Source: Lineolata rhizophorae
Taxonomy: Eukaryota > Ascomycota > Dothideomycetes > Lineolatales > Lineolataceae
Assembly: GCA_010093515.1 (NCBI GenBank)
Contig: MU001682.1
Location: 980,023 to 1,036,171, forward strand
DNA length: 56,149 bases
Direction of reading: 5' to 3'
Part shown: piece by piece, positions 4,259-54,640 of the stretch
How the letters are laid out: every line of letters starts with the position of its first letter
Numbering within the stretch: position 1 is the stretch's first letter
Notes under the pieces: model-generated
Seen by the model: the letters and a program-made list of their open reading frames with translations, nothing else
What the model was told of the DNA's origin: nothing
Database searches by the model: none
Made by a program: the position numbers and the translations under genes

Positions 4259-4574
4259 TATGCGTTGCAGCGTTGCAGCGTGTTTATGCTTCCTTATTGT
4301 AAGGAACGGCGTAGTAACAAGTTCCGCTACGTAAATGTGCGCTGAAGCTCTGAGGTTGACTAAGAGAAGGTGGTGTCGTGATGGCGTAGTATAGCAGAGC
4401 AACAGCCTGACGGCTGCAAGAAGTGTGCGGAAGAGACGTGTTATGGGCTACGAGGCATTAGAACTAGCGGCATGTATAGGCAAAATGCTTATAGTACACG
4501 TACGTAAGGGGCAGGATACTCCTACTCGCACCAACAAGAGAGTAACTGCGCAGCCTAGCCCCAAGTCGGAAATT

Positions 4575-34500: not shown

Positions 34501-35575
34501 CTACTTCTTGAACAGACTCGCCTGCGATCCCCAGAACGGGTTCGGTTGGAAGGATTGGCGGACGTTGTGCTTCTCTTCTTCGTGGAACAGGGGCTTTCGG
34601 TCGTCCGGCAAGGGCGAGGGCACCTTCATTTCGCCTGTAGGAGGTGGTTAGCACGAGGTCAACATGTCAGACAACCTTTCACGAGCGTACCCCGAACAAT
34701 CTCGACGGCCGATATGAGCGGCATGATCAACAGCAACACGGAGAGGAGCTGGCCGAAGCTCCAGTCCTTCTCCGAAGCCCCCCGCAGCGGCAGGTCGGGA
34801 TCGCCAAAGGCCTGCGACATCAGGATGACGCGGACGGTAGAGCCGACGGCGATGGCGACAAGAACGACGAGGCCGAACACCTGGACGGTCTTGACCCACG
34901 GCTGCCTCTTGCTATGCAGGTACCACACGCCCAGGACGAAGACGATGCAGTTGCCGGCCAGGACGGCGATGGTGCCGGCGACGGAGAGGGCGGCGTCGTC
35001 GGGTTTCGGCCGGTCGTCGACGCGCCAAACGCAGGCGATGGGCAGCGTCGGCTCCAGGCCCTTCATGACGCTCATTAAGACGAAGATGCCCGAGACGCAC
35101 GACAGGACCAGGTTGACGAACATGAGGAACTGGCGCAGCCAGCGCAGGACCCAGTCGCGCCTGAAGTCGTTGACGAGGGCGAGCAAGGTGGCGATGTGGG
35201 TGGCGGTGGACAGCACCGACAGCATCCAGACGATGAAGAAGTGGTAGGGGATCATGGTCGTCATCTTGGCCAGCCCGACGCACTGGATGCCGATGCCGGT
35301 GATGATCTGCTGGTCGCTCATCGACTGGAGCATCTTGCGGGAGATCTTGGCCTTCGACTGGCCGCGGAGTTCGTAGAGGATGATGACGGCGCTCAGGACG
35401 ATGGAGAGGCCGGCCGTGATGATGAAGGAGAGGAGAATCTGCGGGGAGGCATCAGCACGAGGCGTCAGACGGAGGCTCCTCCATTGTCGGGCGGGTGCCA
35501 TACCCCAGCGCCTGCGACACCGGGATCGGTGCGGGCGTCGTCGGGCACGACGGTGCAGTTTTGGGAGTCGAACAT
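34501..35575 (-). CDS. Seven-transmembrane protein of the surface-glycan locus (317 aa)
   Basis: Three exons: 35575-35504 (MFDSQNCTVVPDDARTDPGV, 24 aa), 35438-34691 and 34634-34501. Introns are 65 and 56 nt (GTATGG...GCAG; GTACGC...CTAACC...ACAG). Helices lie at about residues 25-47, 72-90, 91-114, 126-149, 174-197, 206-230 and 252-273, giving a seven-pass topology with a short N-terminal outside segment (NCT sequon). The cytosolic tail (PLPDDRKPLFHEEEKHNV) ends in a conserved-looking FQPNPFWGSQASLFKK. The family is a fungal integral membrane protein without known function. It could be a receptor-like sensor or a partner of the neighbouring glycosyltransferase. It lies 978 nt downstream of, and on the same strand as, the acyltransferase-like gene. 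Confidence 0.8.
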
Positions 35576-36553
35576 GACGGCCGGGCGCGCAGGGGAAAGC
35601 GCAGCAAAAACAGAAGCAAGGTGGAACGAAGGAAGACGAGGGAAGCGGGAGCAAGCAAAGGAGCGAGCGCGGATGGAGATGAAGGAGAGGCTCTGCGGGT
35701 GCTTACATAGGCGGACGGCAGTGCGTCATTGGCCGCGGCGCCACGGTACTATAATTAAAACAGTGGCGCAGCTGCCACTCGGGGGCGGTGCGCGGCTCGG
35801 CACCACCACGGCGTCGCGGGCCCAATCACGACAGCCGCCGCTCGAAACCGCCCTGGCGCCGTCGACGCGCCGTCTCGGCCGTTTCGTACCTGCGGCCTGC
35901 TCTCGCGCCGATTCGCTCTGCCGCCCTCGCTGGCAGCCGCCCGCCGCCATGAATTTCGCGATCGCGCCAACACGTCGCGAGCCGCGCTCCTGGACTTCTT
36001 CCTCAGATACAGGGGGGGGGGGAGAGGTGCAGCGTCAAAACATCGTCCGCCAGCATGGAAACATGCGGATCTAGCTGAATCGACCGCTATTAATACTGAA
36101 ATTAATGCTGAACAGAATGCGCGTGAGGACCTACCGTAGAATCAGACCGCGAGAACATTGCTTACACCGATTCCGAGTCTGCACTTGTCACCCGCCGCCT
36201 GCGCATCGCAATCGACAGCGCATCAACGTTTCTCCAAAAGGCAACTCTCCTAACAGAATGCTTTAGAAACTTTACGCGATTACTTCTCCTCTATAGCAGC
36301 GAAAAGCTCGTCATGCTAAAGATGTTAAAGCACCAGGACTGCACTTGATTGTTTGAGTGAATAAAGATTATATAACCAGTAGATACAAGTCTAACTTATC
36401 TAGAGCTAAGTTCCAAATGAAGGCCATGACGGAGCCAAAGACTGGCATCGTACGGGAAAAAAAAAAAAGAAAAAAAAGGAAAAAAAAGGCCATCTTGAAA
36501 GTAGACGAGGAAAAAAGGCAATCGTGTATGCTGCAAGAATCTCCGACGAATGC
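35576..36553. other. Promoter region of the seven-TM gene
   Basis: This is the spacer between tandem minus-strand genes. It contains a G10 run (36012-36021) and, near 36457-36488, an A-rich tract on the plus strand, which is T-rich in the 3' flank of the upstream acyltransferase-like gene. No additional gene is supported; the long plus-strand frame 35196-36074 overlaps real exons and is a shadow. Confidence 0.4.
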
Positions 36554-38058
36554 CTACGTGGACAAAAACTTCCAAGCTTTTTTTCCCGCCCAGACGCTCG
36601 GCTGCTCCACCAGCCAGTACATTATCTCTGCACCAATCGCAGTCGTGGCAAGGCAAATCAGGAGGACGGCCACGTTGGTCATCTCGACCGGCCAGTCGAG
36701 AGTCAAGCGGAAGTAGTTGAACAGCTGGATGCCGAGCTCGTAGGCCAAGATAGGAGCGACAAGGAAGTAGCCTGTGCGGCAATCATCAGTTTTCCATTGG
36801 CAAGGGGTTTCTGCGAGAAGCAAAACAAAACAAAAAAAAAAAAGAAAAAGACCATTTGAACGCGAAACTTACTCAGTGACCTCCTGCCCAAGAAGACAAA
36901 AAGGCGATTGCTCAGCGCGTACTGTAGCGTGTCCGACGTCTCGACCCAGAGGAAGAGGCCCAGCAGGAGCAGGTAGTTGTCGTCGCGGGCCTGCGGCTGC
37001 TTCGGGTCGTAGTTGCTGTTGAGCTTGCCGTCCGTGTACAGCCCCGTGTGGGCGTACAGCTCGTTGTCCTGCAAGTCCGGCCGCCAGGCCGTGAAGAGGT
37101 ACTGCATGATGAGGCCGCCGGTCATGAGCAGCAGCCAGCCGCACCAGGTAGGGATGCGGTAGAGCTTGAAGCCGCGGTGGGCGCGGCCGAAGCGCATCGG
37201 CATGCCGGCCGGCGACTTGCGCTGGAAGCCCATGTGGTGCACCACGTCGGCCAGCAGGATGCCCGTCACCGTGTACCAGGCCCAGCTCTGAACCCACCAG
37301 GCAGTCAGGATGAAGAAGATGAAGGCTTTGACCCGCCACGAGTTGCGCGTGTAGGGGATCACAATCATGGTCATGTAGACGGTGTAGCTCTGCTGGTAGA
37401 TGGCCGAGAGCATCCACAGCGTCTGCGTGGGAAAGCCCAGCGACGCCGACTGCGTGAAGTACAACTTGTTGACCCAGAAGATCTCGAAGAGGCTGTTGAA
37501 GTAGACGAGAGGCTGGTCTATGCGCAGCGGGATCTCGAGCGCCGTATTGCCCGTCTCCTCCTTGAAGCGCACGATGTGCGACTGGCCAACTTGCGACTGC
37601 ACAACAGCGACGATGGCGAGGGCCACCGCGGCGGGGAGGAGAAAGCGGAACGTGCGCCGGAAGATTAGGCTCGCGGCCGTCTGTTTCGTCGGGCTCTTGA
37701 AGAAGGGAAGCAGAACAGTGCGGCCGGAAAGAATGATGAAGGCGCCGTAGATGAGCGAACCGTTCCAGAACAGGACCGAGACCGTCTTCCGCAGCATGTC
37801 CTGGTAGAAAGGGCCGTCGACGTGGTCGTTGCCTTTCACCGCCGCCGGAGCGAACGTCGAGAGGAAGACCCAGAGAAAGGTCTGGATGGTGAACAGGCCA
37901 CGGAGGCCGGTGATGTGGAGGATCTCGACATCCGGAACAGAAGCGTCGTCGGACTTTTGGGCGACGGTGTCGTCGGTAGAGGGAGTGCGAGATTCACGTT
38001 TGCGCCCAAATCGCACCGAGAGATCGTGGAACACGCGCTGGAAGGGAGAGAGGCCCAT
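36554..38058 (-). CDS. Acyltransferase-3-like multi-pass membrane protein (467 aa)
   Basis: Exons are 38058-36873 and 36771-36554, joined by a 101-nt intron (GTAAGT ... CACAG, phase 1). Start MGLSPFQRVFHDLSV. After a 45-residue cytosolic N-terminus come about ten TM helices with acyltransferase-3 landmarks in order: LHITGLRGLFTIQ (residues 48-59), FIILSGRTVLLPFF (107-120), RRTFRFLLPA (134-143), TLWMLSAIYQQSY, and EIMYWLVEQPSVWAG near the end. AT3 proteins move acyl groups onto extracellular sugars. The signature Arg is present (Arg53), but the His expected 11 residues later is Val64, so canonical catalysis is doubtful. It sits in tandem with the seven-TM gene and 4.8 kb from the GT2 gene. Best reading: an AT3-fold partner or divergent acyltransferase of the glycan locus. 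Confidence 0.82.
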
Positions 38059-41000
38059 TTTGGGCGGAGAGTCGGGAAACCGACAAGAGCTTCGACGATG
38101 CCGCCCAGGAAACGAGAGACGAGAAAGTCGTGCGCGACAGAAACGAGCGGTGGTCCAAACGCCTTGATGCCAACCCCGCAATGGAGTCCGCAAATGACGT
38201 CGACGAAGGGCTGAAGCAACTGAAGATAGTACTTGACGGTCCCAAAGGCGAAGCGTTCGGCGGGGAAGTGTATAGCTGGGACGGCGTTATGAACAGGCCT
38301 GTCCACGAGATGCCGATGGGGGGAGTGGGGACGACTCGGCACTGAGTGAACTGAACTCGGCAGAGAGCAGCAAAGAAAAACAGAAATGAAAAAAAAAAAA
38401 TTCGAAAAAGAGAAGGGCTGACCGGTACAGCGAATGCCGGGCAGTGAGCAGCGCACCCCGCGGCTAGGAGAAGAATTGCCCAAGAGCTTTAATCAACAGC
38501 GCGGGCGTGGAGAGAATGTCGGGCAGAGCGCGCGCAGGGGGCACGACAGGGGCATTTGGCGTGATGCGCCGCGGCCCACGGCCTCATCTAAGAGTAGGCC
38601 CCGGCGAGCGCGGCCGGGCGGGCGCGCGCTGCAGCGCAGTGCTACATGCTCAACAAGCGCAAGATGGCGGCGACGAGACGGTTGCGGCGTGGCGCACGGC
38701 CGGGGGCACGGCAGTGTCTTTTGGTTGCATTCGCAAGCTACGATCGACAGCCAGCGACGGCACTCCCTACACAGTAGCGTTTCTTTCCGTTTGTTTCTGT
38801 TTTATTTTATTTTTTTTTTGTTCAACTTTGTTTTCGCTATCTGATATCGCGGACGAGAGACGAGCACACGGTGACAGGGCCGAGTCAAGTGATAAGGGCC
38901 CGCCCTTGCTCATCCCGGCTAGGAACAGGCAATTCAGGCCGCGCACTGCGATCGGCCCGCGACATGCCATGTCCGGCTCTTGATTCTGACGATCCGGTGC
39001 GTCTCCCGAGCGCGCAATCCAACGATCCTCGACTTTTTGCTGTCAATTCGCTGGGGAGCGAGGGCAGCTGGACGCTTATCGACGGCTTCAGGCATCCGCG
39101 CAGCGCCGCCAAGCCGCCCAAATTCACGACGATACAATGGGGTTACGCATCACCACTATCGCGGCCGCTCACTTATTGCCCACGATAATTGCATTCCTCA
39201 CCACTGCCGCGGCCGGACAACGTCGAGAGAAGCGGGCGGGGCCGTGTCGCAGCGGGGCGTTCTGGCATTCCTCGCCTTCCCAGGCCCTGGCCAGAGGACC
39301 ATGGCCATAGCGGGCAATAGTATTGCCCCCCCGGGTCCCGCCAACAGCAAGGAATATCGGCCGGCACGAGGAGACTCCTATCCTGGGGCGGGGCAGGAGT
39401 GGGACGTCCCGGGCGCGCGGCCAAGATTAGACTTCACGTCCACGGGCGAGGAAGCAGAAGGAAAAGGAAGCGGAACAGCAGATCGAGCGCAGGCTGGCTG
39501 AAACGAAAATCGAACCCGTACGAATTCCCGTTCTCGGCCGGCCCTGTCGTTGCACCGCGTCCCGCCCTCAGGCCGAACTACACAATGAAGGCCGTCGATC
39601 GTGAAGGTGTGCGCCGCCGCCGGGCGCTGATTCGCCGCGCGCCAGGCCGCGTTGCCTGTTCCTGTTCAAATGGCCCGTAGCGCGGCCGCCGGCTTGGGGC
39701 GTCGTGGGGCGTCGCTGGCCTGTGGCTGCTCGCGGCCCCTGAAGCGCTCCCCATTCGCCAGTCGCCGGCCACCGCCGCACGCACGAACGCCCCGGTGAGA
39801 TCAGCGGCCTCTGCTCGTCCGCGACCCGTCTATACATGGCCGGCGATCTGGCTTCAATGGCGCGAGCGGCCGGCATCCGTCAGAGAACGGCGTGGGCTCC
39901 AGCTGGACCCCTCTTTTCATCCCGACCGAGACACGCAATTACCGATTCTCGATTTGCTGCGACGATCGTGGTCCGCTGTTGTCTTGCGCAAGCCAGAAGG
40001 AGTCTGATCCAGACGATCGGCGAGATAAGACTGCAGCTGTGGCGCTCGTGTTCACCCCGAATCAGGGCGTCCCCCCGTTCTGTTGCGGACACGTTCGCCG
40101 CCGTCCATTCTCGATACACGACTCAGCCGTGGCTGCTGCCGTTCTTCTGGAACGCGCGAAGAAACGTCCCCGGTCCGCCAGCATGAGGCGGCGCAAGCCA
40201 CGACGCCCAGACCAACCAGGAGGCTTCGACGCTTGGTATGTGTCTGAAACCCAAGAATCGGTGGCTTGTTCGCCCTGCGTCGCGTACCGAAAACGTTGAA
40301 AAAGCGCACGGTTTTTGGCGCCGCCACTTCAGCCACTCGTCGTAGCGTGTATGCATCGGCACGGAGTTCTCCGCAGAGTCCGGCAATCCATATCGCCGGC
40401 GGACATTGCTTCGACGCTCGCCTGCGCCCTGCTTGTCACCGCTCCTGGCAATGCGTAGTCGTGAGATTTGCAATCATTTTCCGCTGTTGCATAGCGCAGG
40501 GGACATCGAGGAGGGCGCGTGAGCGTTCGAGAGGTTGGGTTTGGAGTCATTCCGCTCAGCCACTCGAATTTGTGCCACCTGGCCAGCCTGTCTTGGCTAC
40601 ACAGCAGTTGCAGCTGCTACATACATAGCTAAAGCTTTGTATGTAGATTCATCGCAAGTGGGGTACTCCAAGTCACCTGGAATCCGGCCCCTGTTGTTAA
40701 TCAGGAAAAGAAGCTGGCAGCGAAAATCAGCGGTCTCCATGGCCACGACCGTCTTCTTCTCCTGAAGGCAATTGATACGGTGGAACAATGGAAGAGCGCC
40801 TCTAGGTCGTCGAAAAAAGCCTGGCGTCAGGAACGAGATTCATCCAGACAAAACGGCTAAAACGGAGAACCGCCACTCTCCTACGTTGTGGACAGGACGT
40901 CGTCGAGTGCGTCTCATGACCGTCCACGCGACAACCAAGAGCTGCCGGTGGTACGAAGTAAATGTCTCGCCATCTTGCAATCTTGCTGCACGCATATCCA

Positions 41001-42891
41001 TCGTACAGCGGATAACTCCGCAGCGTGTTGCACCATTCGTGGGGTGCATTTGCATTCTGCGGCTGCCGCGACGGGTCCCGCTCCAAGTTGCCGCCTTACT
41101 ACCCAAGTCCCGTTGTGAATTGGAGAAATTGCTCGGCTGACATGTTCCGTAGAAGACGGAATAATATGACAATACATGCGAGAAACTTCTGATTTCATTC
41201 GCCGGGAGTAGCCTACGTGTGCACGAGGTCGAGGCTGCGAGCAGCACTTCAGCTTGACCAAGCTTATGCTATACTAAGAAAAGGCTGCTCTTAGTTACAC
41301 CGGGCTGCCAAAGTGGCGAGCTTCACCGCATGGCTCCACTAGCATACCTGTCAAATGAACAAGCTCACCACTTCTCGCCTTATAGAATCGTGTGCAACGC
41401 AGGCTTCAACATCTTGCTTCGGTCTGACTCCCAGAGCCTACTTTATTAGACGAGTACATACTACGTATGTAAATCTAGAATCTGTACCTTGAATCATCCC
41501 TGTTCTGCGATCTGCCGTGCTCGCCCGAGCTTGACAGTCCAGGGAAGAAGCTTGTCAGGCCAACCCATGCTGGCTTTCAGTAGCGCAATTTAGCCGGCGA
41601 TCCTAGCGCTCGACCTGCGTTGGCTATAATCCGTGGTTTCTTTCGCGCTGCACGATGAAGTCCGCTTTTGGGTCCCCTCGTGGTGCCTCTCGCCACCTGC
41701 AAGCACCCAAGAGAATCGAATTTCTCCGTCGCGATGAAGTCACGAGCGCTAAGAGTAGCGCCCGGAGGTTTTGCGGAAAGATTCAGGAAAGCATGTCCAG
41801 GTTTCAAGCGGCTCGCTTCCATCAAGATCAAAATTATAGTCATTTTCGGAGGTAGCACCGCAATATACCAGCGACGCTGGGATTCCCGATCCTATATAGC
41901 GCTTGCCGAGTGATCAAGTACATTCACAATCGGCTGCTTCCAAATCGCCACCCGGGAACCTGACAATCGTAGTTCCGTCGAGGTATTTGCTCGGCATCGA
42001 GACCGTATACTCGGGAGCGCGGCGATGGCATATGCCTTGGAGTATAACCGGCTTCCAGAATGCTTCTACATGTATACCATGGTTTTAGAGCGTCGGGATT
42101 ACCAAGGCGTTAGTTTTGAGGCATAACTTTGGTAAATCTGCAAGTCGGCTATCCTGAATGATAAGAGACCCTGCATTGCTGGTCCAAGGGAGAGGTTCTT
42201 GTCACCCCACAGAGACTGTCCCAACCCCAACGAGACTGAAGCGGCTAAAGATGTTGAGGCAGGCTTGCAGGCTACCAAGTCTAAAATGCATTACATTAAA
42301 AGGTGCCCGCGAACAAATATTCTATGCCGAGTGACCTCTAAAGAATATGTACAAGAATCGAATTCGTGTCGCCAGTTCCCCGAAGGCCATATTACACCAA
42401 GGCCCCCAACGTAGCAAGGCAACAAACTAATAAACGAACCAAAAGGCTAGGGCGAAAGAAATGGAAAAGATGCCCCGAAGCGAAATGTAAGAGGGTATAT
42501 GTCCATGTTATAATGTATGCGTAAGTGCACGCTTTCACTCGCAAAAGCCCCTGTCGTTCCGCCCCTGCCGACCCTGGCAATGGGAACCACGCTGTCCCCA
42601 CAATATGGTCCTTATCTGATAGTGAAGGTGGAAAAAAAGCCCGACACGCGCTTCGCACTTTAGTGCGGGGTTGCTCCCGCCGCAGAACCGGGCCAAATTT
42701 ATGGGATGGAGATTTGGGGTGGCGACATTCTCCGCATAAGCCATGATTGCGCTACCTGCGAGTGGTCCTGGGCCGGTCCCGTCGGACATTGAGGATGGAC
42801 GGAGAATTGCAAGAAAAACAGACTTGTCGCTTTATCGGGAAAAGTAGAACTGAAATTCGTGCGGAGTCCGAGGCAGGAGTCCGGCTTGGCA
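38059..42891. other. Long (4.8 kb) GC-rich intergenic region
   Basis: Between two co-oriented genes of the glycan locus there is no convincing gene, though composition is GC-rich to about 41 kb and moderate after that. All long frames are short, overlap each other on both strands and lack domains. The first 400 bases are the 5' region of the acyltransferase-like gene; the last few hundred are the 3' flank of the GT2 gene. The length is large for a compact fungal genome and leaves room for long UTRs, a non-coding RNA or a multi-exon gene that I could not resolve. Confidence 0.4.
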
Positions 42892-44489
42892 TCATGATCT
42901 TGCCGTGGGATTCCACGACGAATAGTTGATCACTTGGCGAGCATGACCGTAAAGGCCGATGGTCGCGTTGATGATAAGGTAGACCGGGTAAAGGAGAGAG
43001 AAGACTACGATCATCCAGGGGGTAGCAAATTCCGACTTGGCGCGGTTGGTGATCCAGAGGGTCGCGAGGAGGCAGACGATACTACAGAGGCCGGTTAGAT
43101 TCGGCGGCTAGCAAACCACGCACGAGCGTTCATATCTTACCTGACGATTAATAGCCACTGGCTGACGGGGTACTGAAAGTACACCAGCCGCGCCAGCTCG
43201 GCCACCGTAGACGGGAACTTGGTGATGAGGAAGCTCAGAACAAGACAGGTGTACTGCGTGACTAGATAGTAGCTCCACTCTCGGATGAGCAGCAAGCTGA
43301 TCAGACCGAAACGCACCCGGAAATTGCGTTCCAGGCCCTCCATTCTGACCCGCTTGTACGACAGCTCCAAGTGCCTGATCGAGGCCTGCGTCCAGCCCTG
43401 CGCCCACCGGAGACGCTGCTTCCAGAAGCTCTGGAAGTTGGTGGGAGCGAGCTCGTAGGAGACCACGTTGAGATCATGCACCGTCTTGGCGCCACGCGAA
43501 ACGGCGCGCAAGGCCGAGTCGATGTCCTCGGTCAGCATGCTCTCGTCCATTTTGAGATCCTTGATGAGCGAGGTGCGCCAGTACCCGTTGCTCCCGCAGA
43601 ATAGGCCGAATCCCCACTGCTTGGCGCGCCCAGGATGCGAGACGGCGTAAATCTTGTCGAACTCGACGCTGATCATGGAGGTCAGGAAATTCTCGCCAGA
43701 GTTGAAGACGACGCAGCGACCCTGGACGATGTCGACCTTTGGATCCTTCTTGAAGCGTTCGATGGCCCAGCGCGGGCCGTGAGGGTGCATGTAGTGGTCA
43801 CAGTCGTAGATGGCAATTACGTCGGAGCCTGTGTTAAGGGTGAAAAAGTAGTTGAGGTTGTCGGCCTTGGACTTGGAATTAGGAACTCGGATGACGCGCA
43901 GCTCGGAGTACTTGGCGGCCAGTTGATGAAGCTCCGTTTCAAGCGGTTCGATCGGATACGGCGTGTTGTAGACAATGTTGATCCGGAGCTTGTCCCGCGG
44001 GTACTCGATCTTATCGAGAGCGTAAAACGCCCGATCCATGATGATGTCCTTTTCGTTGGGCAGATACGCGACGATGATAATGTCGAGAATGAGCAACTCG
44101 TCATCCTTGGTCGGAAACTTCCACCCGCTCGCTTCCAGCTTGCTGACCGCCTTGCGCGCCTCGCGGCACGGGATGATGCTCAGGAATGCTTCGAAGACGG
44201 TCATGGAAGCGATGTAAAAGTTGGTGGCCATGTAGACGAACCAAAAGACGGCAATCAGACCCTCGCTGCAGATCGTGTACAGGCAAGTGCTGAAGATGAA
44301 GTACGAAAGAACGAGTGTAAAAGGCGTCCATTCCTGAATGAAGAGGGAGCATCGCTCCAAGAGGTTTGGCCTCGGTGGAGGATGCGGCGGCAGAGAGGGG
44401 GTTGGCGAAGTGCTTTCGGACTCGTACGCGACCTCGTCGATGGTGACGGTGAAGTCTTTGGAATCGGAGGGGCCCTTGGTGTCCGCCAT
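42892..44489 (-). CDS. Processive family-2 glycosyltransferase (512 aa)
   Basis: Exons are 44489-43141 and 43081-42892; the 59-nt intron (GTAAGA ... TCTAAC ... GTAG, phase 2) joins ...QWLLIV to SIVCLLATLW. Start MADTKGPSDS; upstream frame has only a TTG. There are two TM helices at about residues 57-72 and 78-104, a cytosolic GT2 domain (132-375), then C-terminal TM helices (395-423, 447-461, 471-495). Catalytic motifs of cellulose/chitin/hyaluronan-synthase-like enzymes are present: KADN (208-211), DCD (229-231), TED (320-322) and QRLRW (358-362). It should polymerise a UDP-sugar and extrude the chain. It resembles the ascomycete ZtGT2/FgGT2 type, known from memory to be needed for hyphal growth on surfaces. 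The polymer is unknown. It is transcribed away from the GH16-acyltransferase gene. Confidence 0.92.
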
Positions 44490-46317
44490 TTTGACGAAGG
44501 ATGGCACGACGAGCGAGACAGCAGAGGGAACAAAGCGAGCGATCAGTGTAGTAAACGATACCAACGAATGAGTTTATTAGGGAGAAAGAAGGGATCAGAA
44601 GCGAAGCTTTTCGGCGTGAACAGGGCGCCACCTGGTCTACGTCCGCGTCTTCTGGAATTACAATGGATGAATCTGAACGACCGGAGAACGAAGAACCTTG
44701 ACTATTGAGCTATAACGATAGACTGTACTGCGGGGGCACAGAGCTGTAAACGAGGGAAGCTCTAGACCCGGATCGCTGGGCGAAAGAATTATCGACCCAA
44801 GATAGATTCCTAGACGGAAAGCTGCATGGTGATGGCAAGGTAAATGAGCGAGCAGGCGATGTAAATTGACGGGCGGCGAGGGCAAGCAGTTGGAGAATAC
44901 GTCGACTCGCCCGGCGGAGCGACAGGCACGCTACCAGAACGAGAATCAATAAACAGGGGTACGATAAAGGACGAACGCCCCTCGGGGCAGGGAGCGCACG
45001 GTTCGATCGCAAACGCCAAGGGGACAAGCCAGGGCGCGGCGGCCGAGGGGCCGTCGGGCTGATGATGGGGAGCGATCAGTGCAGCCACGGTGCCTGCAGC
45101 CCGTAGGATGCAGATGCGATTGCAGCGGGCTGGAAACGAAACATCCACGCACCATTATCCGCTCGCCATTGGTCCGATTGGCAATGGAGCTCACCCCGGA
45201 CAGCAAGTCCAGAACAGCGAGGAAATAGAAGGGCCTTGAACAAACCACTCCAGCGGGGGGACTGCTGAGGTTCGGGAATGAAACCACAAGAGCGCCAAAA
45301 CATTTCTGGTAAGTGAAGGCTTTTTTTTTTCTACGTGATGAATTTGCGAAGCCTTGGCATGAGAAATACCGCAATTGATCGCGCAATGGGTTCATGCTAC
45401 ACGGCTTTCACCCCAGACGGCGGCCAGACAGCGGGTGGTTGTTACCTGCAGAACACTGCGGGGGCAACAAACGCGGGCGAGACAGCGACTACCGAGCAAT
45501 TGGAGCGCGGGCCGCGTGGTGGTGCGTGGTGCGCGGACCGGGACAACCCTAGTCGCCCAAACGGAAAAATATCAGTTGCACAACGAGGTCTAAGCCGGAC
45601 CTGACGGCTTTGCGGCATGTGCAGGGCCCGGAAATGGCAGCGCGGCAAGAGCCACAGAGAATGAGAAGTGAGACGCTGATCGAAAGCAGGCCGATCAGCT
45701 GCGCATCATCATCAACACCCGCGCCATAGGTAGTTGAGAACCGCAGGAGAGGGTCGCGACGAAAACGGATGAGACATGTGGGCCCGGGCGATAAGAGCGA
45801 CCCGGGAGAGGCCAAGATCGTCCCGAAGATGGCACGCAAGCATGCTTGTGGAGCCCAGAGCAGTATGTACACGGACTGTGCCTATGTACTACGTAAGCTG
45901 GGAACAGGTCGCGGACAAGATTAGGGGGCGGGCGGGTCTGCGCTTAGAGAGCGGCTAAGAAAAGATCAGAGCAGGGGGAGCAAAAGGAAAAGGAAAAAGA
46001 TATTGGATTGATTGTACGCAAGGGTGGCCTACGAGGGAGCCGACAGGGCCCATCGTCCAGCCGTGCTGCTTCGGCTTGGCGCACAGCGCAGCCGGGGGAA
46101 ATAAGGTGTCGCCGGTCGGACGCAGGTGTCTCTGAGCTCCGGACCAGGGCGGCGACGGCTTGGCGACGCGATGCAGGCGCCGCCGGGCAGGGGGCGGGTG
46201 CGACTTATCAGCCATCACTGCGTCGGGGTGCCATTGGGCAAAAAATAGAAGCTGAAGACGGGGAGGAGAAGACGTCGCACGGCGTCTGGCCCGACCGTGC
46301 GCGCAACGACGACGGGA

Positions 46318-46340
46318 CGGCGGCGGCGGCGGCGGCGGCG
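46318..46340 (+). repeat. (CGG)n microsatellite
   Basis: An uninterrupted CGG repeat of about 7.7 units, followed after ACGACGAGG by a shorter (CGG)3. It is in the non-coding divergent promoter region. CGG is also the classic half site for Zn2Cys6 regulators, but a simple repeat is not evidence of a binding site. Confidence 0.8.
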
Positions 46341-46504
46341 ACGACGAGGCGGCGGCGGAGAGGGGTTTGTGCGACGCGGATAGTTGTTGGTGAGGCGGAG
46401 AGCTCGCTTGCTACTGTAGCAGCGGGACGGTGGGGGCAGCCAAAGCCCACGGGAGGCGCAGCCGGAGTGGCCGGAAGCGTGAAGCGCCGCATGCGGGCGG
46501 GGAC

Positions 46505-46536
46505 GGGGTGGGGGTGGGATGGGGATGGGGATGGGG
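46505..46536 (+). promoter_or_regulatory. G-quadruplex-prone run
   Basis: At least six runs of 3-5 G separated by one or two bases (GGGGTGGGGGTGGGATGGGG and onward). This meets the usual four-run quadruplex rule several times over. It lies in the divergent spacer about 1.4 kb upstream of the plus-strand start and 2.0 kb upstream of the GT2 start. Confidence 0.5.
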
Positions 46537-47825
46537 TTGGGTGGTGGTGATGGGCGACTGGGGGCGCAGAGAGATGATGATGAGGCCGGGCGGGTCTCGG
46601 GGCCCGGCTTGGCGCGAGGGCCGGCGGTGGCGCGGTGGTGGCGTTCGTGGCGCCGGGAGCCGGAGACGGTGGCGCGCGCGGCGGTGCCTGCCAAGCGCGA
46701 GCGCGCGCCGTGGAACGTTATCTCGGGGCCCCTCGCCCTCGGCGCGCGCGCGGCCCGGCGGGCGACGCAGGGCTGACCGTGCCGCCCAACACGTTGTACC
46801 GTACCGCTCAACGCATGCCGTACCGTACCGCCCTCCGTCCGCACCGCACATTCCTGCCACGGACGCACCGCGCGCCGCTGTGCGCCCTCCTGCATCATTT
46901 TACCAGCGCCGCGGGCGCCGGCGGCGGCTGGCCGGCTCCGGCAGCGCCCGCCGGCCACCCACGGCTCCCTCCGCCCGCGCTCCGCGCCCGGCGCCGTGCG
47001 CATATTGGCCCTGGGCCTGCCTCGGCCGCCCGTACGTATAGTACGCCTTCCCCTTAGATTGTGCGCCGTAATGACCTTGTATACGCCCGCTGCACACGGG
47101 CATCGGCATCCAACCGCCCCGCCGGCCTGCGCCCGCGGGCAATTGAGCGAACATTGTTTCCATGTCCCCGCTGTTTCGTTATTGCGCCCTTCATATTCCT
47201 GCCCACATGCCATCCCGGCCGCCTCCCTCCCTGCCGCCTCCCTCCCTCCACGCCCGCTCCGCAAACAGTCTTATGGCGGCCAGCCCGGCGCTCTATTATC
47301 GCTGCCGCTGGGCCTGCTCGCCGACGCCAGCCGTCCGCCGTCCTGAGTCGGGCATTATTGTGGATCCTGTCCTCTCCCAGTAGCCTGGAATCCTCGTGGG
47401 CCCCGGTCGCTGGCCACCACGCTGACTCTTTCCACTGCTACTCCCTAACCTCTCCTCCCTCGTCCTGCCCCATTATCTCTGGCTGGCTTTTACAACCCCC
47501 CCCCTCGGCTCGTGCGGCTGGCTGAGAGGCGCCGCAGTCGCCGGAGCGTCCTCAACGGCCGTCTGCAGAGCCGGTGCGCCGCTGCCGATCCCAGTCCCAG
47601 AACTATTGATTTTCCCATTCCCGCCATATGCCCCTAGAGGGCAGATCCTATTAGGTAGTAGCGCCTTGTTTCTTGCCCTTCTAGAATTGTCCGAATCACT
47701 GCCTGGCCCGTTCTCTTTTCATTAACACCCTACTCAGTCCCCTATCTAGCCACCGTGACGCTATCCTCACACCACACTCCCTCTCTCACATTCTCTGTTT
47801 CTTTTACTTTTCCTTTCCAAACTCA

Positions 47826-47864
47826 ATGTCTGCCGTTAGCCGGCTGTCTCGAACACTCGGTTGA
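47826..47864 (+). promoter_or_regulatory. Upstream ORF in the leader of the GH16-acyltransferase gene
   Basis: An ATG at 47826 opens a 12-codon frame (MSAVSRLSRTLG, stop TGA at 47862-47864), 95 nt before the main start at 47960. It follows a CT-rich tract (TTTCTTTTACTTTTCC) typical of fungal transcription starts, so it is probably in the mRNA. It could dampen translation of the 1071-aa protein. Confidence 0.4.
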
Positions 47865-47959
47865 GCTTTTCAGTGGTTTTGCTTTCTTGTTGTATCATCG
47901 TTCCTTCTCGCATATCCCAGGTCCGCCCCTCCTAGTGAGCGGGCCGCACGACGATAGAG

Positions 47960-50900
47960 ATGGCTTCTTCACGCTTTCTTCTCCGCTCGCTGCTTCTTCC
48001 TTCTCTCGCCTTCCTTCCGGGTGCGTCCGCATCCGACGTCAACGACTGCTCCTGCGGCTTCTACGACCCTTCCACCGACTACGTCTTGACCGACTCCTTG
48101 ATCGTCTACTTCAACGAATCCCAGAGTCTGGACGAGTTCGTGATCAAAGAGTACTCCAACCCGTACGAGAAGAGCTGGAACAGCAAGTACCGCCAAGGCG
48201 CCGTGGCGGAAAATGTCGGGTTTCCGAACGACACCCGGACGGTCAACTCTTCGCTCAACCTTTTCGTGGACAAGTGGACCGAAGACCACGTGGTCAATGG
48301 CGGAGAGATCCGGACGAAGCGCCAGGACGTCCACTACGGATCGATCCGGGCGCTCATCAAGTCGCCGCCGCACTGGGCCGGGGGCAGCTCCATGACGATG
48401 AAGGTCGAGTACAACGACACCGAGTCGCTCGAGCTCAACGTGATGAACACGGACCACGAGGAGGAGGCGTGGGTGAGCACGCTCATCTCGGGCGAGTGGC
48501 CGGAGCGGTCGCTGGGGACCAACTACAGCGTCGTCAACAATGCGTCGCTCGTCAACAGCAGCGTGACGTCGCCCTGGAACTTCACCGAGTACCGGATCGA
48601 CTGGAGCAAGGACTGGATCAACTTCACCATCAGCGGCAACACGACGCGGGTCATCTCGAAGCACGACAAGCAGCTGCCGAGCGTGCCGGGGCCGCTGACG
48701 CTGAAGCACTGGTCGACGGGCAACACGTACACGTCCGAGGGCCCGCCGATGATGCGGTCGGTGGCGAGCGTCGGCTGGGTGCGCATGTTCTTCAACACGA
48801 CGGCCATGACGGAGGACGAGCGGGAGGCGTACGACGAGCGGTGCAGGGCGCAGGCCGCGTGCTCGATGGAGGACACGGCGCTGCGCGGGCAGTCGCCGTA
48901 CGCGCTCGAGTCGACGGAGAAGTGGAAGCAGAAGCACCCGGGCGGGGACGACCGCAAGGCGGCCATCGGCATCTCGGTGGTGTGCATCGCGACGTCGGCG
49001 CTGCTGCTGGCGCACGCGGTGCTGCGGAAGAAGCCGTGGAAGCGCAAGGCGGCGGGGGAGGCGGGCGGCGGCAAGGAGGCGGCGGGCGGCAAGGACTCGG
49101 CGACGCCAAGCGACGACGGGCGGGGCGGGAAGGCCCGGCCCAGAAAGCTTAGCCTGGAGGACCACGGTGCGGGGCTGACGTCGGCGACGGTGACGCCGGC
49201 GTACAGCACGCCCTTCAACGGCACGCGCCCGCCGTCGCCCGCGGCCCGCGCGCGCGGCGACAGCTGCTCCAACTCCAACGCCTTCCCCGCCACGCCGCGC
49301 ACCGCCCACTTCAACTCGGAGGAGGCGACGCTGGCCTCGGGCAGCGCCACGCCCTACGCCCGCTCCGCCTTCGGTGTCCCCGCGCCGCGCGCGCCCGGCG
49401 ACGACGACGCCGACGCCATCCGGCCCGTCGGCGCCGACTCGTACTTCGACCGCTCCGAGGCGTCGCTGCCGGGCTACGTGTCGCGGCCCGACACGGCCGC
49501 GGGCTTCGACCGCGACCGCCGCGACGCCTGCTACACGCCCGGCGGCATGTCGCAGTCGTCGGCCTCGATCATGGCGCCGCCGCCGCCGTTCCAGTCGACC
49601 GCCAACCTGGTTCCACCGCCGCCGCCGCCGTCGCCGCCCGGGACGGCCCGGGACGGCCCGGCCGCGGACCGCGGCGCCGGCGCTAGCGCCAGCGGAACCG
49701 CCTCCGCCTCCGCCGCCCCCGCGCCGGACCCCTCCCCCGCGACCCCCCCGCAGCCCGCCAAGAAGCGCATCGACTACCTCGCCGGCCTCGTCGCCCTCTG
49801 CTCCGTCGTCGTCACCGTCATGCACTTCTGCCTCACCTTCATCCCCGCCGCCGTCATGCCCGGCTCGCCCGCCCACTACCCTTCCGAGCTGTGGGCCCGC
49901 ACCTACATCGCCCCCTTCGTCCTCAACCAGATGTGGCTCGGCGTCTTCTTCACCACCTCGACCCGCTTCCTGACGTCGCGCTACCTCAAGGAGGGCGAGC
50001 TGTCCGGCATCGCCGAGCGCGCCACGCGCCGCACCCCCCGCCTCATGATCCCCGTCGCCACCTGGGCCCTGGTCGAGTACTTCCTCATCGACATCGGCGC
50101 CACCCACTGGCTCGAGTACGTTCCGTCCGTGACCTGGTCCACCTGGCCCTACGTCACCCGCTACCCCAACTTCGGCCACTACCTCTCCGCCATCCTCGAG
50201 CTCGTCTACCTCATCCCCAACGCGGTGCCCCAGGTCACGCTCTACTACTGCACCGGCGTCCTCTGGACCATCGCCGTCCAGCTCCAGTTCTCGTGGATGG
50301 TCCTCATGGCCGCCATCGTAATCCGCGAGGTCAAGACGCCCTGGAAGCGCTTTTCCTTCTACGCCTACTGCGTCGTCGTTAACTGGTACGCCCAGACCTG
50401 GGGCGCCTACCTCTGGCTCGGCCTCCTGCTCACCGACCTCGACGTCACGTACAAGTACCGCAAGTGGCTCTTCGCCAAGCCCTGGACCCGCTACTACCCA
50501 CTACTCTGGCTCTGCATGGCCCTGGTCGTCATCGGCTTCACCGCCAACATGCTCCCGCAGTGGATCCCGCAGTTCAACTTCTCCATCATTGAATACGGCT
50601 TCCACCCGGACCTGCCCACCGGCCTGGCCCTCGGCCAGACGGAGCGCGCCGGCTACCCGCCTTACTACGTCCCGCGCCTCACCGCGCTCTTCTTCGCCGT
50701 CGGCATGCAGGCCATCGTCGAACTGAACCCCACCTTCCAGAAATTCCTTTCCTTCCGGTACTTCGTCATGCTCTTCCCGCACATCTTCACCATCTACCTC
50801 GTCCACGGCCTCGTCTTCTGGAGCTGGGGCGCCTGGCTGATCACCTTCCTGGCCGCCCACGGTGCGCCATATTGGGCCAACTCGCTCGCGGTCGGCCTCA

Positions 50901-51175
50901 GTTCGTACTTTTTGCTCGGCTGCTCGCTGCCCATCGTCACGCCCATCATTGAGCTTCTGGGCGTCGAGATCACCAAGCAGGTGTGGCACTTTGCCCACAA
51001 CAAGCCGGAGCCGCGCCGGAAGACAATCTTCCCTTACCGAGACGACACCTTCATACAGTACGAGGACGGCGCCTATCGTCGGAACACTCCGGAGGAGTCG
51101 GTGGAGAGCCTCCCGAGCCAGAACGACCGCCGGGATCCCGTGGATGAAAAGAAGAGCAAGTTTGACTTTGACTGA
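47960..51175 (+). CDS. GH16-like / acyltransferase-3-like fusion membrane protein (1071 aa)
   Basis: A single exon. Residues 1-25 are a signal peptide. Residues about 26-300 form a GH16-like jelly roll with many N-glycosylation sequons; landmarks are HYGSIRALIKSPPHW (125-139), MKVEYNDTESLELNVM (147-162), FTEYRIDWSKDWINFTISG (208-226) and LTLKHWSTGN (246-255). The usual E-x-D-x-E active site is replaced by D153-T-E155-S-L-E158. One TM helix (about 335-355) leads into a 240-residue Ser/Pro/Ala-rich cytosolic linker with repeated Thr-Pro sites. Residues 603-1010 are an acyltransferase-3-like multi-TM domain (IDYLAGLVALCSVVVTVMHF; RRTPRLMIPVATW; VLWTIAVQLQFSW; FTIYLVHGLVFW). Here the signature Arg is Val611, but His622 is kept. 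The product should sit in the plasma membrane, contact wall glycan outside and possibly acylate it. Confidence 0.88.
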   Translation: MASSRFLLRSLLLPSLAFLPGASASDVNDCSCGFYDPSTDYVLTDSLIVYFNESQSLDEFVIKEYSNPYEKSWNSKYRQGAVAENVGFPNDTRTVNSSLNLFVDKWTEDHVVNGGEIRTKRQDVHYGSIRALIKSPPHWAGGSSMTMKVEYNDTESLELNVMNTDHEEEAWVSTLISGEWPERSLGTNYSVVNNASLVNSSVTSPWNFTEYRIDWSKDWINFTISGNTTRVISKHDKQLPSVPGPLTLKHWSTGNTYTSEGPPMMRSVASVGWVRMFFNTTAMTEDEREAYDERCRAQAACSMEDTALRGQSPYALESTEKWKQKHPGGDDRKAAIGISVVCIATSALLLAHAVLRKKPWKRKAAGEAGGGKEAAGGKDSATPSDDGRGGKARPRKLSLEDHGAGLTSATVTPAYSTPFNGTRPPSPAARARGDSCSNSNAFPATPRTAHFNSEEATLASGSATPYARSAFGVPAPRAPGDDDADAIRPVGADSYFDRSEASLPGYVSRPDTAAGFDRDRRDACYTPGGMSQSSASIMAPPPPFQSTANLVPPPPPPSPPGTARDGPAADRGAGASASGTASASAAPAPDPSPATPPQPAKKRIDYLAGLVALCSVVVTVMHFCLTFIPAAVMPGSPAHYPSELWARTYIAPFVLNQMWLGVFFTTSTRFLTSRYLKEGELSGIAERATRRTPRLMIPVATWALVEYFLIDIGATHWLEYVPSVTWSTWPYVTRYPNFGHYLSAILELVYLIPNAVPQVTLYYCTGVLWTIAVQLQFSWMVLMAAIVIREVKTPWKRFSFYAYCVVVNWYAQTWGAYLWLGLLLTDLDVTYKYRKWLFAKPWTRYYPLLWLCMALVVIGFTANMLPQWIPQFNFSIIEYGFHPDLPTGLALGQTERAGYPPYYVPRLTALFFAVGMQAIVELNPTFQKFLSFRYFVMLFPHIFTIYLVHGLVFWSWGAWLITFLAAHGAPYWANSLAVGLSSYFLLGCSLPIVTPIIELLGVEITKQVWHFAHNKPEPRRKTIFPYRDDTFIQYEDGAYRRNTPEESVESLPSQNDRRDPVDEKKSKFDFD

Positions 51176-51514: not shown

Positions 51515-52320
51515 TCACTCGGGGTCTGAAACGCCGCGGATTCCGTCCTTCCAATAATTTTGCAGCATTTTGAACTCGTCTCGTTCGATCAGATGCTTGG
51601 TGAGCTCCCCCTCGCTCACCCAGTGGCCCTCCCTATCATCCTCGTCTCCTTCGAAGACGACGCGGTAATAGGGCATGTCGCCGATGTAGCTATCATCCTC
51701 GATGCTCTCCACGTTGTTGCCGAGGCCTAGCACGCGACTGGCGTATTCGCCCTCGGAGCTCTCGTCATCAGGCTCGCTGTCGGCGATGGCGGCGGCGATG
51801 ATGGACATGCCACCCACGTCTGCGTCGTCGGCGCGCGAAGCGGTCCCGGCGCGTCCGGCAACTCCGGACGAGGCACTGGCGTCCGGGCCGAGCTGCGGCT
51901 CGTTGAAGACTCTCGTCTCAAAATCTTCTACTTGGCGCCGCGAGACGTAGTCGTACACGTCGAAGACGTGCACGTTCTTCTCCTCGAGCCGCGCGCCGTG
52001 GCCAGTCTCGCGCCATATCCTGAGCGCGTAGTACGGCGTGTTGTCCGCCGCGTACGCCCGCCTCACGATCTCTGACCTAGCGTTGGGTATGGGGCAGTCG
52101 GACGACACCGTCTTCTTGGGCGGCTCGACGTGGCGGTTGGGCACGTACTCCCACGGGTTGTAGGGAAAGTCGGAGAGCTGGTCGTCGAAGGCGGCGCGGG
52201 CGGACGGATCTGCGGGCTTGCCCGGGTGAGCGTGCGATTCGCACAGCAGGCAGGAGGACGGCGTACGCTCTTGTAGACGGGGACCTCTACGGCGCGGCGC
52301 GGCGGCATCTTGCCGCGCAT
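51515..52320 (-). CDS. Acidic hypothetical protein, two exons (251 aa)
   Basis: The long frame 52402-51515 has no ATG at its 5' side. The only good start is MRGKMPPRRAVEVPVYKS at 52320 in another frame, so I place a 50-nt intron at 52266-52217 (GTACGC, CTCAC branch, AAG end). It joins ...VYKS to PADPSARAAFDDQLSDF. The protein has FPYNPWEYVPNRHVEPPKK near the N-terminus and a mid region NVHVFDVYDYVSRRQVEDF. An acidic Ser-rich stretch (DSEPDDESSEGEY) follows. At the C-terminus, MPYYRVVFEGDEDDREGHWV with WKDGIRGV is weakly like a chromo- or Tudor-type beta barrel. No firm family. Intron ends are inferred from frame alone. Confidence 0.55.
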
Positions 52321-52842
52321 GGCCAGCGCGAGGCGAAACGAGCGGCGGGCGCGGGTTGACGATGCAATCGACGGAGGCTAAGCCGGCGCAAGGCCGCCGC
52401 ACCCCAAGGTCAGATCACGTGCATGCGGCGAGCATCGCGGAGAGCTGAATTGCGTCGTGTTTTGGATTTTGGCATTGGCGACTACGGAGTGCGCGGCGCC
52501 GAGGCCGGGCGCAGCCACGATGCCTCGGGCAGGGCACGTGAGGCTCGGGCCCCGGCGATTTCGTCCTCCGCGCCCGGCCGCTGCTTATCTACTGCCGCAA
52601 AACACCAAGTCCCGCCAAAACCCGTGGCGATAGCCCAGTCCTCCCAACTCCCGACCGCTCGTGAACCCAGCTGATATCGCAACAGAAGAAAAGCGGAACC
52701 GACCGTTGTTCTCGTCGCAGCCTCGTCTCTTTGCATTGTTAACGCTGACATGATGTGACATTTGGCAATTGCATAGCTTGTAACACCCAAACACACTGCG
52801 CCGCAACGCCGCCTGAGTCCGTCCATACCGTTGCCGCCGTCC
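52321..52842. other. Intergenic between tandem minus-strand genes
   Basis: This GC-rich spacer of about 520 bases holds the promoter of the 251-aa gene and the 3' flank of the coiled-coil gene. Small frames on both strands lack support. Confidence 0.4.
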
Positions 52843-54640
52843 TCACTCCGACATCACGCTGCTGTCCTTGAGCAGCGTGTCGCTCAGGTGCATCGACATG
52901 GTCCGCTGGCGCTGCACCTTTCGCTGGGCCTGAGTCTTCAGGAACATGGGACTGCCGGGCTCCAGGATCTGCTGCTCCGCTTCCCGTGCCGCCTCTGCCA
53001 CCTGCTCCTTCGCCAGCACCGTGGCGTAATTCATGGGCTCCGCCGCGTTGTCCTCGATGAGGAAAATGCACGGGAACACCACGAGCATGTACTCCTCGGG
53101 CCCCGCCTCGGTCGTCTTGGACGTCTCCGGGTCCTCGTCGCCGTCGAACCGGACGAGCTCGCTCTGCATGTCTCCCCGTTCCCAGGGCGCGAATTCGGGC
53201 TCGTACCGCTTCCGCGCCTTCTGGATCTCCATCCATCCCTTGCACGCCACCTGCGCTACCTGGCGCACCTGAGACTTGAACTTGTTTAGCTTCTTCTCGC
53301 AGACGAAGCCTGTGACGAACCACTCCATATCCGTCACGACGCGGTCTATCCTGGCCGCCGCACTCTTGGACTGCTTTTCCGGCTCCATAGACAACAGCAG
53401 TGCCCGCGAGTACGACTCCTTCTCGCTATCCTTGATGGCCTCGTCCACCAACACCTTGCGCAAGTCCTCCTCGGAGAACAGGTAGTTGGGCTGAAACAGC
53501 CACTTGTCGACTACGCGGGAGAAGATGGCCAGCATGACGGCGGTTCGCATCTGCTTTGCCGCCGGCGAGTTTGATACCGGCAGTGGTACACGATGGTTGA
53601 GGATTCTAGGCTCCTTCAACTTCAACCAGGCATCTCTGTCCTGCAATCCCGTTAGCCGCGCAGACTCCTTCGCGAACCACTGCTCTCACGTACCTGAAGA
53701 CATTCTTCGGAGAGGTCGTCCTTGAAAAGGCCCGAAATCATCTTCATCGCTGCTGGCCATATCTTGGTGACTTGCCGCAGTCTGCAAGACGTCAGTGTTC
53801 GTCCCCGGCGCGATTGTTGTGCACTTACAATTCTTCCTCATCCTCATCGGGATGAGTGATGGCAAAGCCTTCGAGCTTCTTCAACCTATCCACGGTTGCT
53901 TCCAGCTCCTCTATCTTGGCCTTGCTCGTCTCCAACTCGCTCGTGGCGGAAGAGTGCTCATCCTTAACCTTCTCTAACTCCTCTCCGAGGTTTTTCGCCT
54001 TTCCGGTTTCCTCGTCTAGATTGCCCTTCAACTGGCCGATTTCCTCTTTTTGGCCTTCCAAAGTTGTGTTAAGTTCCTTGTTCTTGCCCTCCATCTCTTC
54101 AGTCTTCGCCTGCTCCTCGGTTAGCAAACCTTGGACGCGTTCTAGCTCCTTTTGCGTCGTTTCCTCCTTCGATTTCTCCTCGGCCAGAGCCTTCTCTGCC
54201 TTCTGCAGTTCGTCCCGAAGCGCCTTCGCGTTATCCTTGAGCGTGCTGTTCTCCCTTCCAATCTCGCCCTCCTTCAGCTTGTGCGTTTGAAACACGTGTT
54301 CAAACGCAACATTGTGACGCTTTCGCAAGTCCTTAATCTCCGCGTTTAGCCTTTCGAGCTCGTTTTCCTTTGACTTGATCCGCCCCTCGAGTTTTGCCGA
54401 TTCGTTGAAGAGCCCTGTCAATTCTCTATAGCAATCGCTCGCGGCTAAGATGTGAACGGAGTCGAGAAGCCGTTTGAGGGCATCTCTAGAACCCGAAGTC
54501 GGATGCCTGTCCGCACCTCTCACGGCCGACGTCGTTGTGGATGACAAAATCGAGGTTGTTCTAGCATGCGGGTGCCTATCCTTGATGCCGGATGGCGCAG
54601 TTGACGAGACCGCCGACGCCGGCTTGCTCTGGGAAGACAT
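52843..54640 (-). CDS. Coiled-coil protein, three exons (565 aa)
   Basis: Exons are 54640-53829, 53781-53694 and 53640-52843; introns are 47 and 53 nt (GTAAGT ... TTGCAG, phase 2; GTACGT ... CTAAC ... TTGCAG, phase 0). The frame choice joins ...DEDEEEL to LRQVTKIWPAAMKMI and ...SEECLQ to DRDAWLKLKEPRI. Start MSSQSKPASAVSSTA at 54640, after a Ser/Thr-rich disordered head. Residues about 85-260 are a long heptad coiled coil rich in Glu, Lys and Leu. The C-terminal third is globular and helical (QMRTAVMLAIFSRVVDKWLF; VVTDMEWFVTGFVCEKKLNK) and ends with a Met/Ser tail. It resembles widespread but uncharacterised Pezizomycotina coiled-coil proteins. Structural or scaffolding role inferred; no link to the glycan locus is visible except position. 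Confidence 0.8.

Follow-up and report, generated by a model that had tools for sequence, protein, structure and literature searches.

A processive-type GT2 of a mostly bacterial clade between two diverged AT3-like genes in Lineolata rhizophorae

Four neighbouring genes of the fungus Lineolata rhizophorae raise the question of whether a membrane GT2, two AT3-like proteins and a further membrane protein make up one cell-surface polysaccharide pathway, as an earlier note on this DNA had proposed. The window analysed here comprises 56,149 nucleotides of GenBank assembly GCA_010093515.1 (contig MU001682.1, positions 980,023 to 1,036,171) and is the terminal 56 kb of contig C13 in our numbering of a 31-Mb genome with 48 contigs. 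Gene C encodes the GT2, genes B and D encode the AT3-like proteins, that of D being fused to a GH16-like ectodomain, and gene A encodes a protein with several transmembrane (TM) segments. The results place C in a GT2 clade that is mostly bacterial and whose bacterial members usually adjoin an AT3 gene, and they make a joint fungal system of C, B and D plausible.

The GT2 of gene C and its bacterial relatives

Gene C (42892-44489, minus strand; exons 43141-44489 and 42892-43081) encodes 512 amino acids (aa) and matches PF13632 at 70.2 bits. The motifs that the earlier note had listed are all present, with KADN at residue 208, DCD at 229, TED at 320 and QRLRW at 358, and they are flanked by hydropathy peaks near residues 57, 78, 435 and 473. 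C thus combines the DxD, TED and QxxRW motifs with the flanking TM helices by which processive GT2s are recognized, and by this signature it is a processive, membrane-embedded GT2 with a putative role in polymer synthesis. Its best sequence match in the PDB is BcsA (5ej1, 4hg6; residues 185-370, E 2e-10), with which it has the processive GT2 motifs in common, but its first exon scores 86 bits against bacterial cellulose synthase, far below the NCBIfam CelA cut-off of 699.

The earlier note had assigned C to the ZtGT2/FgGT2 type, and this assignment does not hold. In the accessible text of PMC5653360 and PMC9500679 the Cps1 (ZtGT2) gene is reported in Leotiomyceta, and the latter gives Cps1 in 39 of 39 species and Cps2 as missing from 14 of them. 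A PF13641 search of the L. rhizophorae genome gives 10 matches, including two Cps-like candidates at C21:251481 and C1:1634764 (contig and position), which are called Cps1- and Cps2-like from their motifs and the papers rather than from named Cps sequences. A tree of 36 rows separates C from both candidates at 100/100. The spacing from DxD to the Gln of QxxRW is 129 in C (229 to 358), compared with 141 in C21:251481 and with 140-145 from the residues given in the accessible part of PMC8539240 for FvCpsA (D161, D163, Q301) and MoGT2 (D156, D158, Q301). The motifs of C1:1634764 are inexact (DDS, KMFRW), and its spacing of 147 is only approximate. A protein search of the genome with C listed no second match. 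As a fungal membrane GT2 with DxD and QxxRW motifs, C resembles Cps1/CpsA/ZtGT2/FgGT2 and Cps2 as described in the parts of PMC5653360 and PMC9500679 available, but it lies in a separate clade with different motif positions, and its own genome carries the Cps-like pair elsewhere. The tree separation and the spacing rule out C as a member of the ZtGT2/FgGT2/CpsA kind, and these sequence comparisons support well that it is a GT2 of processive type but not of the Cps family.

A tblastn search of plasmids with C returned 258 records, the best being a Streptomyces megaplasmid (37% identity, E 2e-58), and the next-best match reached E 3e-12 at best among the 15 listed. With an alignment of C and the Streptomyces plasmid GT2 as the query, 206 confirmed relatives were found in bacterial and archaeal genomes, and the best 80 of these together with one plasmid form our sample of 81 bacterial loci (L050-L130). 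The relatives belong to the Actinomycetota, Chloroflexota, Acidobacteriota, Pseudomonadota and Cyanobacteriota. Their core identity to C is 38-46% in the 31 bacterial rows compared, against 24-28% for three plasmid rows that carry the annotations curdlan synthase, CelA-like and GT2. The DxD-to-QxxRW spacing is 127 in 74 of the 79 rows measured, and in two further rows, compared with 129 in C; four of the five deviating rows have 130-133, and the fifth (L078) was measured from the wrong DxD. C and the bacterial GT2 rows group together at 98/100 in the 36-row tree and at 100/100 in a second tree, and by its sequence C belongs to this mostly bacterial clade. C has a long branch and an odd composition and falls outside the bacterial rows (90/82), so that a horizontal transfer, in either direction, may or may not lie behind its placement.

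Some of the bacterial GT2s carry additional domains, with GGDEF-like Pfam matches in 5 of the 11 scanned (one of them under the cut-off) and REC matches over the cut-off in two of the 11 (one more under it), whereas C shows no Pfam match to REC or GGDEF. Among the matches listed for a search of phages with C there were only distant GT2s, and searches of viral contigs with C and D and of plasmids with B and D returned nothing useful. In a Sphingomonas metagenome-assembled genome (L064, 7236-12077), a GT2 of the clade lies inside a single 1614-aa frame with many TPR repeats.

AT3 genes adjoining the bacterial GT2 genes

A hidden Markov model (HMM) built from ten seed AT3s finds, in 62 of the 81 bacterial loci, an AT3 that lies immediately downstream of the GT2 and on its strand, at a distance of 5-176 bp between the GT2 stop and the first aligned AT3 residue. 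A broader AT3 HMM recovers the same 62 and adds two upstream cases on the same strand, both cyanobacterial and with matches that stop some 0.5 kb short of the GT2 frame, which brings the count to 64 of 81; it finds no further AT3 in the 1,246,804 bases of bacterial loci. The ten seeds were chosen by an R-X10-H-type motif and the other 52 downstream partners were not, while the broader HMM includes 16 partner rows. Pfam upholds the partner in all ten cases tested, nine downstream and one upstream, at 50-110 bits. Ten of these bacterial genomes hold at least 77 AT3 matches in about 74 Mb, so that roughly 1.3 AT3s would be expected in 1.25 Mb of loci, compared with the 64 loci in which one is observed.

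The 64 positives span the Actinomycetota, Chloroflexota and Cyanobacteriota and comprise Streptomyces (44, and the Streptomyces plasmid), Nocardioides (8), Lentzea (3), Actinomadura (2), one each from Pimelobacter, Marmoricola, Actinokineospora and Tengunoibacter, and two cyanobacteria. No AT3 is seen in the remaining 17 loci, four of which (L060, L089, L078 and L108) have no more than about 0.8 kb of downstream sequence and are uninformative. The adjacency in 64 of 81 loci supports the view, drawn from gene order, that this kind of GT2 works with AT3 proteins. No description of a bacterial GT2(GGDEF/REC)-AT3 pair was found in the literature, in a search thin on subscription papers, and the accessible text of PMC13390465 and PMC11064477 concerns other actinomycete genes and does not include the pair.

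The motif R-X10-H is intact in 61 of the 62 downstream partners. The exception is the partner AT3 of a Tengunoibacter locus in the Chloroflexota (L116, about 9102-10373), which has Tyr in place of the His in TM helix 1 (TMH1). A tblastn search of the 81 loci with B, D, two other AT3s of the L. rhizophorae genome and a GH16 gave no match. The HMM results show that the AT3 part of this negative is false, and because tblastn missed real AT3s, its GH16 part is weakly founded as well. Among the 11 GT2s and 10 AT3s of the bacterial loci that were scanned, Pfam recognizes no GH16.

The AT3-like and GH16-like domains of B and D

Gene B (36554-38058, minus strand; exons 36873-38058 and 36554-36771) encodes 467 aa, and gene D (47960-51175, plus strand) encodes 1071 aa in a single exon. 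The two AT3-like proteins of the earlier note are recovered as weak PF01757 matches, at 16.6 bits for B and 20.2 bits for D, both under the Pfam cut-off of 31. At the threshold applied, hydropathy resolves four peaks in B. The AT3-like domain of D starts at about residue 605, and its AlphaFold model is helical, with a predicted local distance difference test score (pLDDT) of 65 and a predicted template modelling score of 0.68. A fold search of this model against the PDB gives no match at E <=0.001, and HGSNAT (8vlg) appears at E 1.6.

In the accessible text of PMC9833829, R-X10-H in TMH1 is described as absolutely conserved in AT3 proteins and RXXR in TMH3 as highly conserved. B keeps Arg53 and has Val64 at the His position, while D has Val611 at the Arg position and keeps His622; the RXXR motif is present in both, as RTFR in B and RTPR in D. 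Compared with the AT3/TmAT acyltransferases of the OafB type (PMC9833829 and PMC12423673, in the parts available), B and D are alike in their weak PF01757 match and RXXR, but neither has an intact R-X10-H. All five other AT3 matches of the genome keep R-X10-H, and three of the five have an exact RXXR (L018 has RSGK, and L020 has no match). Because both AT3-like domains lack the dyad, the O-acylation that had been ascribed to them is uncertain. The accessible text of PMC12423673 describes GWT1 as adding an acyl group although it is without the catalytic His of HGSNAT, and by this precedent the loss of the His need not abolish activity.

The ancestry of B and D was compared with that of the bacterial partners in an AT3 tree of 38 rows, which comprises 16 of the 62 partners, 16 non-partners, four of the five other fungal AT3s, B and D. 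The non-partner rows were chosen by an R-X10-(H/Y) pattern and are silent on motif frequency, and four of the 20 non-partner loci fetched (L137, L143, L150 and L152) yielded no row. B and D fall into one group with three of the fungal AT3s (98/96) that does not include the bacterial partners; the remaining fungal AT3 (L020) is placed elsewhere, and the tree does not resolve whether B and D are sisters. This grouping rules out common descent of B and D with the bacterial partner AT3s. Because B and D are of a fungal AT3 lineage, any fungal GT2-AT3 pairing would have been assembled separately, and the bacterial pairing is no proof of co-inheritance. The fungal locus is thus like the bacterial pair in its GT2 core, its spacing and a nearby AT3-like gene, but the bacterial partner directly adjoins its GT2, almost always keeps R-X10-H and belongs to a different lineage. 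The link between GT2 and AT3 that had been proposed for this locus gains independent support from the bacterial genes and is weakened for B and D by their lineage.

In addition to its AT3-like domain, D has a signal-like N-terminus, a GH16-like ectodomain, a TM segment near residue 336 and a low-complexity linker, in this order. The N-terminus resembles a signal peptide by eye, with no hydropathy peak over the threshold, and residues 1-334 contain 11 N-glycosylation sequons. PF00722 matches residues 96-261 at 26.7 bits, over the cut-off of 22, confirming the GH16-like nature of the ectodomain. The ten GH16 matches of the genome are D, two that do not span the catalytic site and seven others, and the catalytic motif E-x-D-(x)-E is kept in all seven (two read by eye). 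D has SLELNVM at this site, and the acid/base residue is missing under either alignment. The absence of ExDxE/ExDxxE rules out an active GH16 enzyme in D and makes the trimming of a polymer unlikely; the ectodomain may still bind glycan, the other role suggested for it. An AlphaFold model of the GH16 domain has a pLDDT of 40 and was not used. The D ectodomain has a relative at C37:111022-111441 (L012/L047; 26%, E 3e-8), a GH16-like frame with an intact EIDME and a hydrophobic C-terminus. Neither a GH16-AT3 fusion nor a fungal GT2-AT3 cluster is described in the literature found, the search again being thin on subscription papers.

A joint system, chance neighbours and the surrounding genes

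We infer that C, B and D act jointly as one fungal glycan system, which is plausible and is put forward tentatively. C would be an inner-leaf processive GT2 that polymerizes and exports some glycan, and B and D, two diverged AT3-like proteins flanking C, would most likely serve the same polymer. The non-catalytic GH16-like ectodomain of D would catch the emerging chain, and B and D would then modify it through a changed chemistry or be its partners in the membrane without catalysing anything themselves. Gene A has no part in this explanation. The weakest steps would be a catalytic acylation carried out by B or D and the trimming of the polymer by D. In favour of a joint system are the motifs and clade of C, the bacterial adjacency of GT2 and AT3, the common strand of B and C, and a genome search with D in which B comes out as the best AT3 relative. 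The scarcity of AT3-like genes speaks for it too: PF01757 finds only five matches in the genome besides B and D, and with seven AT3-like genes in 31 Mb, chance would place about 0.003 of them within 7 kb of C, a figure that is post hoc and in which B and D count once if they are a tandem pair. Several observations weigh against a joint system. R-X10-H is broken in both B and D, both proteins fall among fungal AT3s apart from the bacterial partners, and they may simply be an old tandem pair. The gaps are 4.8 kb between B and C and 3.5 kb between C and D. On the bacterial side, the positives are non-independent, with 44 of 64 from Streptomyces, and 13 of the 77 informative loci show no adjacent AT3, L061 and L072 among them having just 1.3 and 2.2 kb of downstream sequence.

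It is also possible, and only somewhat less so, that the genes are chance neighbours, B and D being fungal AT3-like proteins, perhaps an old tandem pair, with a role of their own, and C and A being unrelated to them. When the genome is searched with D, the best AT3 relative returned is B (24%, E 2e-9), which favours chance, as do the position of C between the two on mixed strands, with gaps of 3.5-4.8 kb, and the placement of B and D outside the bacterial partner lineage. The kinship of B and D is loose, since a genome search with the first exon of B lists only B itself and not D; this too counts against a joint system. The scarcity of AT3-like genes in the genome and the repeated pairing of this GT2 kind with AT3 in bacteria argue against chance.

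A complete surface-glycan acylation pathway, in which C polymerizes, B and D O-acylate, the GH16 domain of D trims and A senses or scaffolds, is unlikely. It is consistent with the domain content and order, the bacterial GT2-AT3 adjacency, the RXXR kept in B and D and the GWT1 precedent. However, R-X10-H is broken in B and D while it is kept in five of five other AT3s of the genome and in nearly all bacterial partners, the GH16 catalytic motif is absent from D, and gene A has no tie to the others. More doubtful still is a fungal synthase system unrelated to Cps1 that arrived by convergence at the GT2-AT3 pairing of bacteria. In it, B (with its Arg) and D (with its His) would contribute complementary half-sites and the dead GH16 would grip the glycan, and together they would make up a heteromeric complex that modifies or captures a surface glycan not yet described. 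The identification of C with the ZtGT2/FgGT2/CpsA surface-growth synthase, with which it shares the GT2 superfamily, DxD, QxxRW and a membrane location, is scarcely credible in view of the 100/100 separation, the spacing of 129 and the single match in its own genome.

If C, B and D do cooperate, fungi would have a synthase system for an undescribed glycan that is distinct from the pathway of Cps1/ZtGT2, and its chemistry could be approached through the tractable GT2-AT3 gene pair of actinomycetes. B and D would then also illustrate, by their substitutions, what becomes of AT3 proteins once R-X10-H is lost. Even without the fungal link, the widespread bacterial GT2-AT3 pairing is a testable system.

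The gene models of A-D are conceptual, predicted from the DNA alone by open frames and GT-AG introns, and were compared with a codon-use scan for which 11 long frames at other loci of the same genome served as the training set. Genes A, B and C contain GT-AG introns. The main frames score 75 (A), 114 (B), 108 (C) and 264 (D) and rank at the top of the scan, and these scores and the open frames support A-D as genuine genes, as the earlier description of four neighbouring intact genes had it. B and C lie on one strand, and C and D form a divergent pair. The scan reveals no additional gene among the four: the 3.5-kb C-D intergenic region (44490-47959) shows no coding stretch in the scan, and the highest-scoring intergenic stretch among A-D, starting 18 bp beyond the start of B, reaches only 10.9. 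The claim that no gene interrupts the four is upheld to this extent, but the second exons of B and C, real though short, reach no more than 17.0 and 14.6, and a similarly small exon could therefore escape the scan.

Gene A (34501-35575, minus strand; exons 35504-35575, 34691-35438 and 34501-34634) encodes 317 aa. It had been described as a seven-TM protein, and the frame is indeed a multi-TM one, but hydropathy resolves six clear peaks. Gene A matches no Pfam family at E 1 and has two weak relatives in the same genome (E 0.005 and 0.007). Pfam, genome relatives and hydropathy show no tie of A to B, C or D, and the proposed sensor or scaffold role gains no support from them.

The left part of the window, which had been called a decayed compartment, has a lower G+C; the repeat-induced point mutation index is positive in just three of the 28 two-kb bins of the window, all three in the left part and none above 0.21, and decay is weakly supported. 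The same low-G+C part contains frames with Zn2Cys6 DNA-binding domains at 2993-4447 and 5504-6826 (minus strand). Downstream of D, frames at 51515-54700 (minus strand) have codon scores of 42-62, one being coiled-coil-like, and none of those shown is over a Pfam cut-off; one of these frames is related to C9:83574 (23%, E 2e-9).

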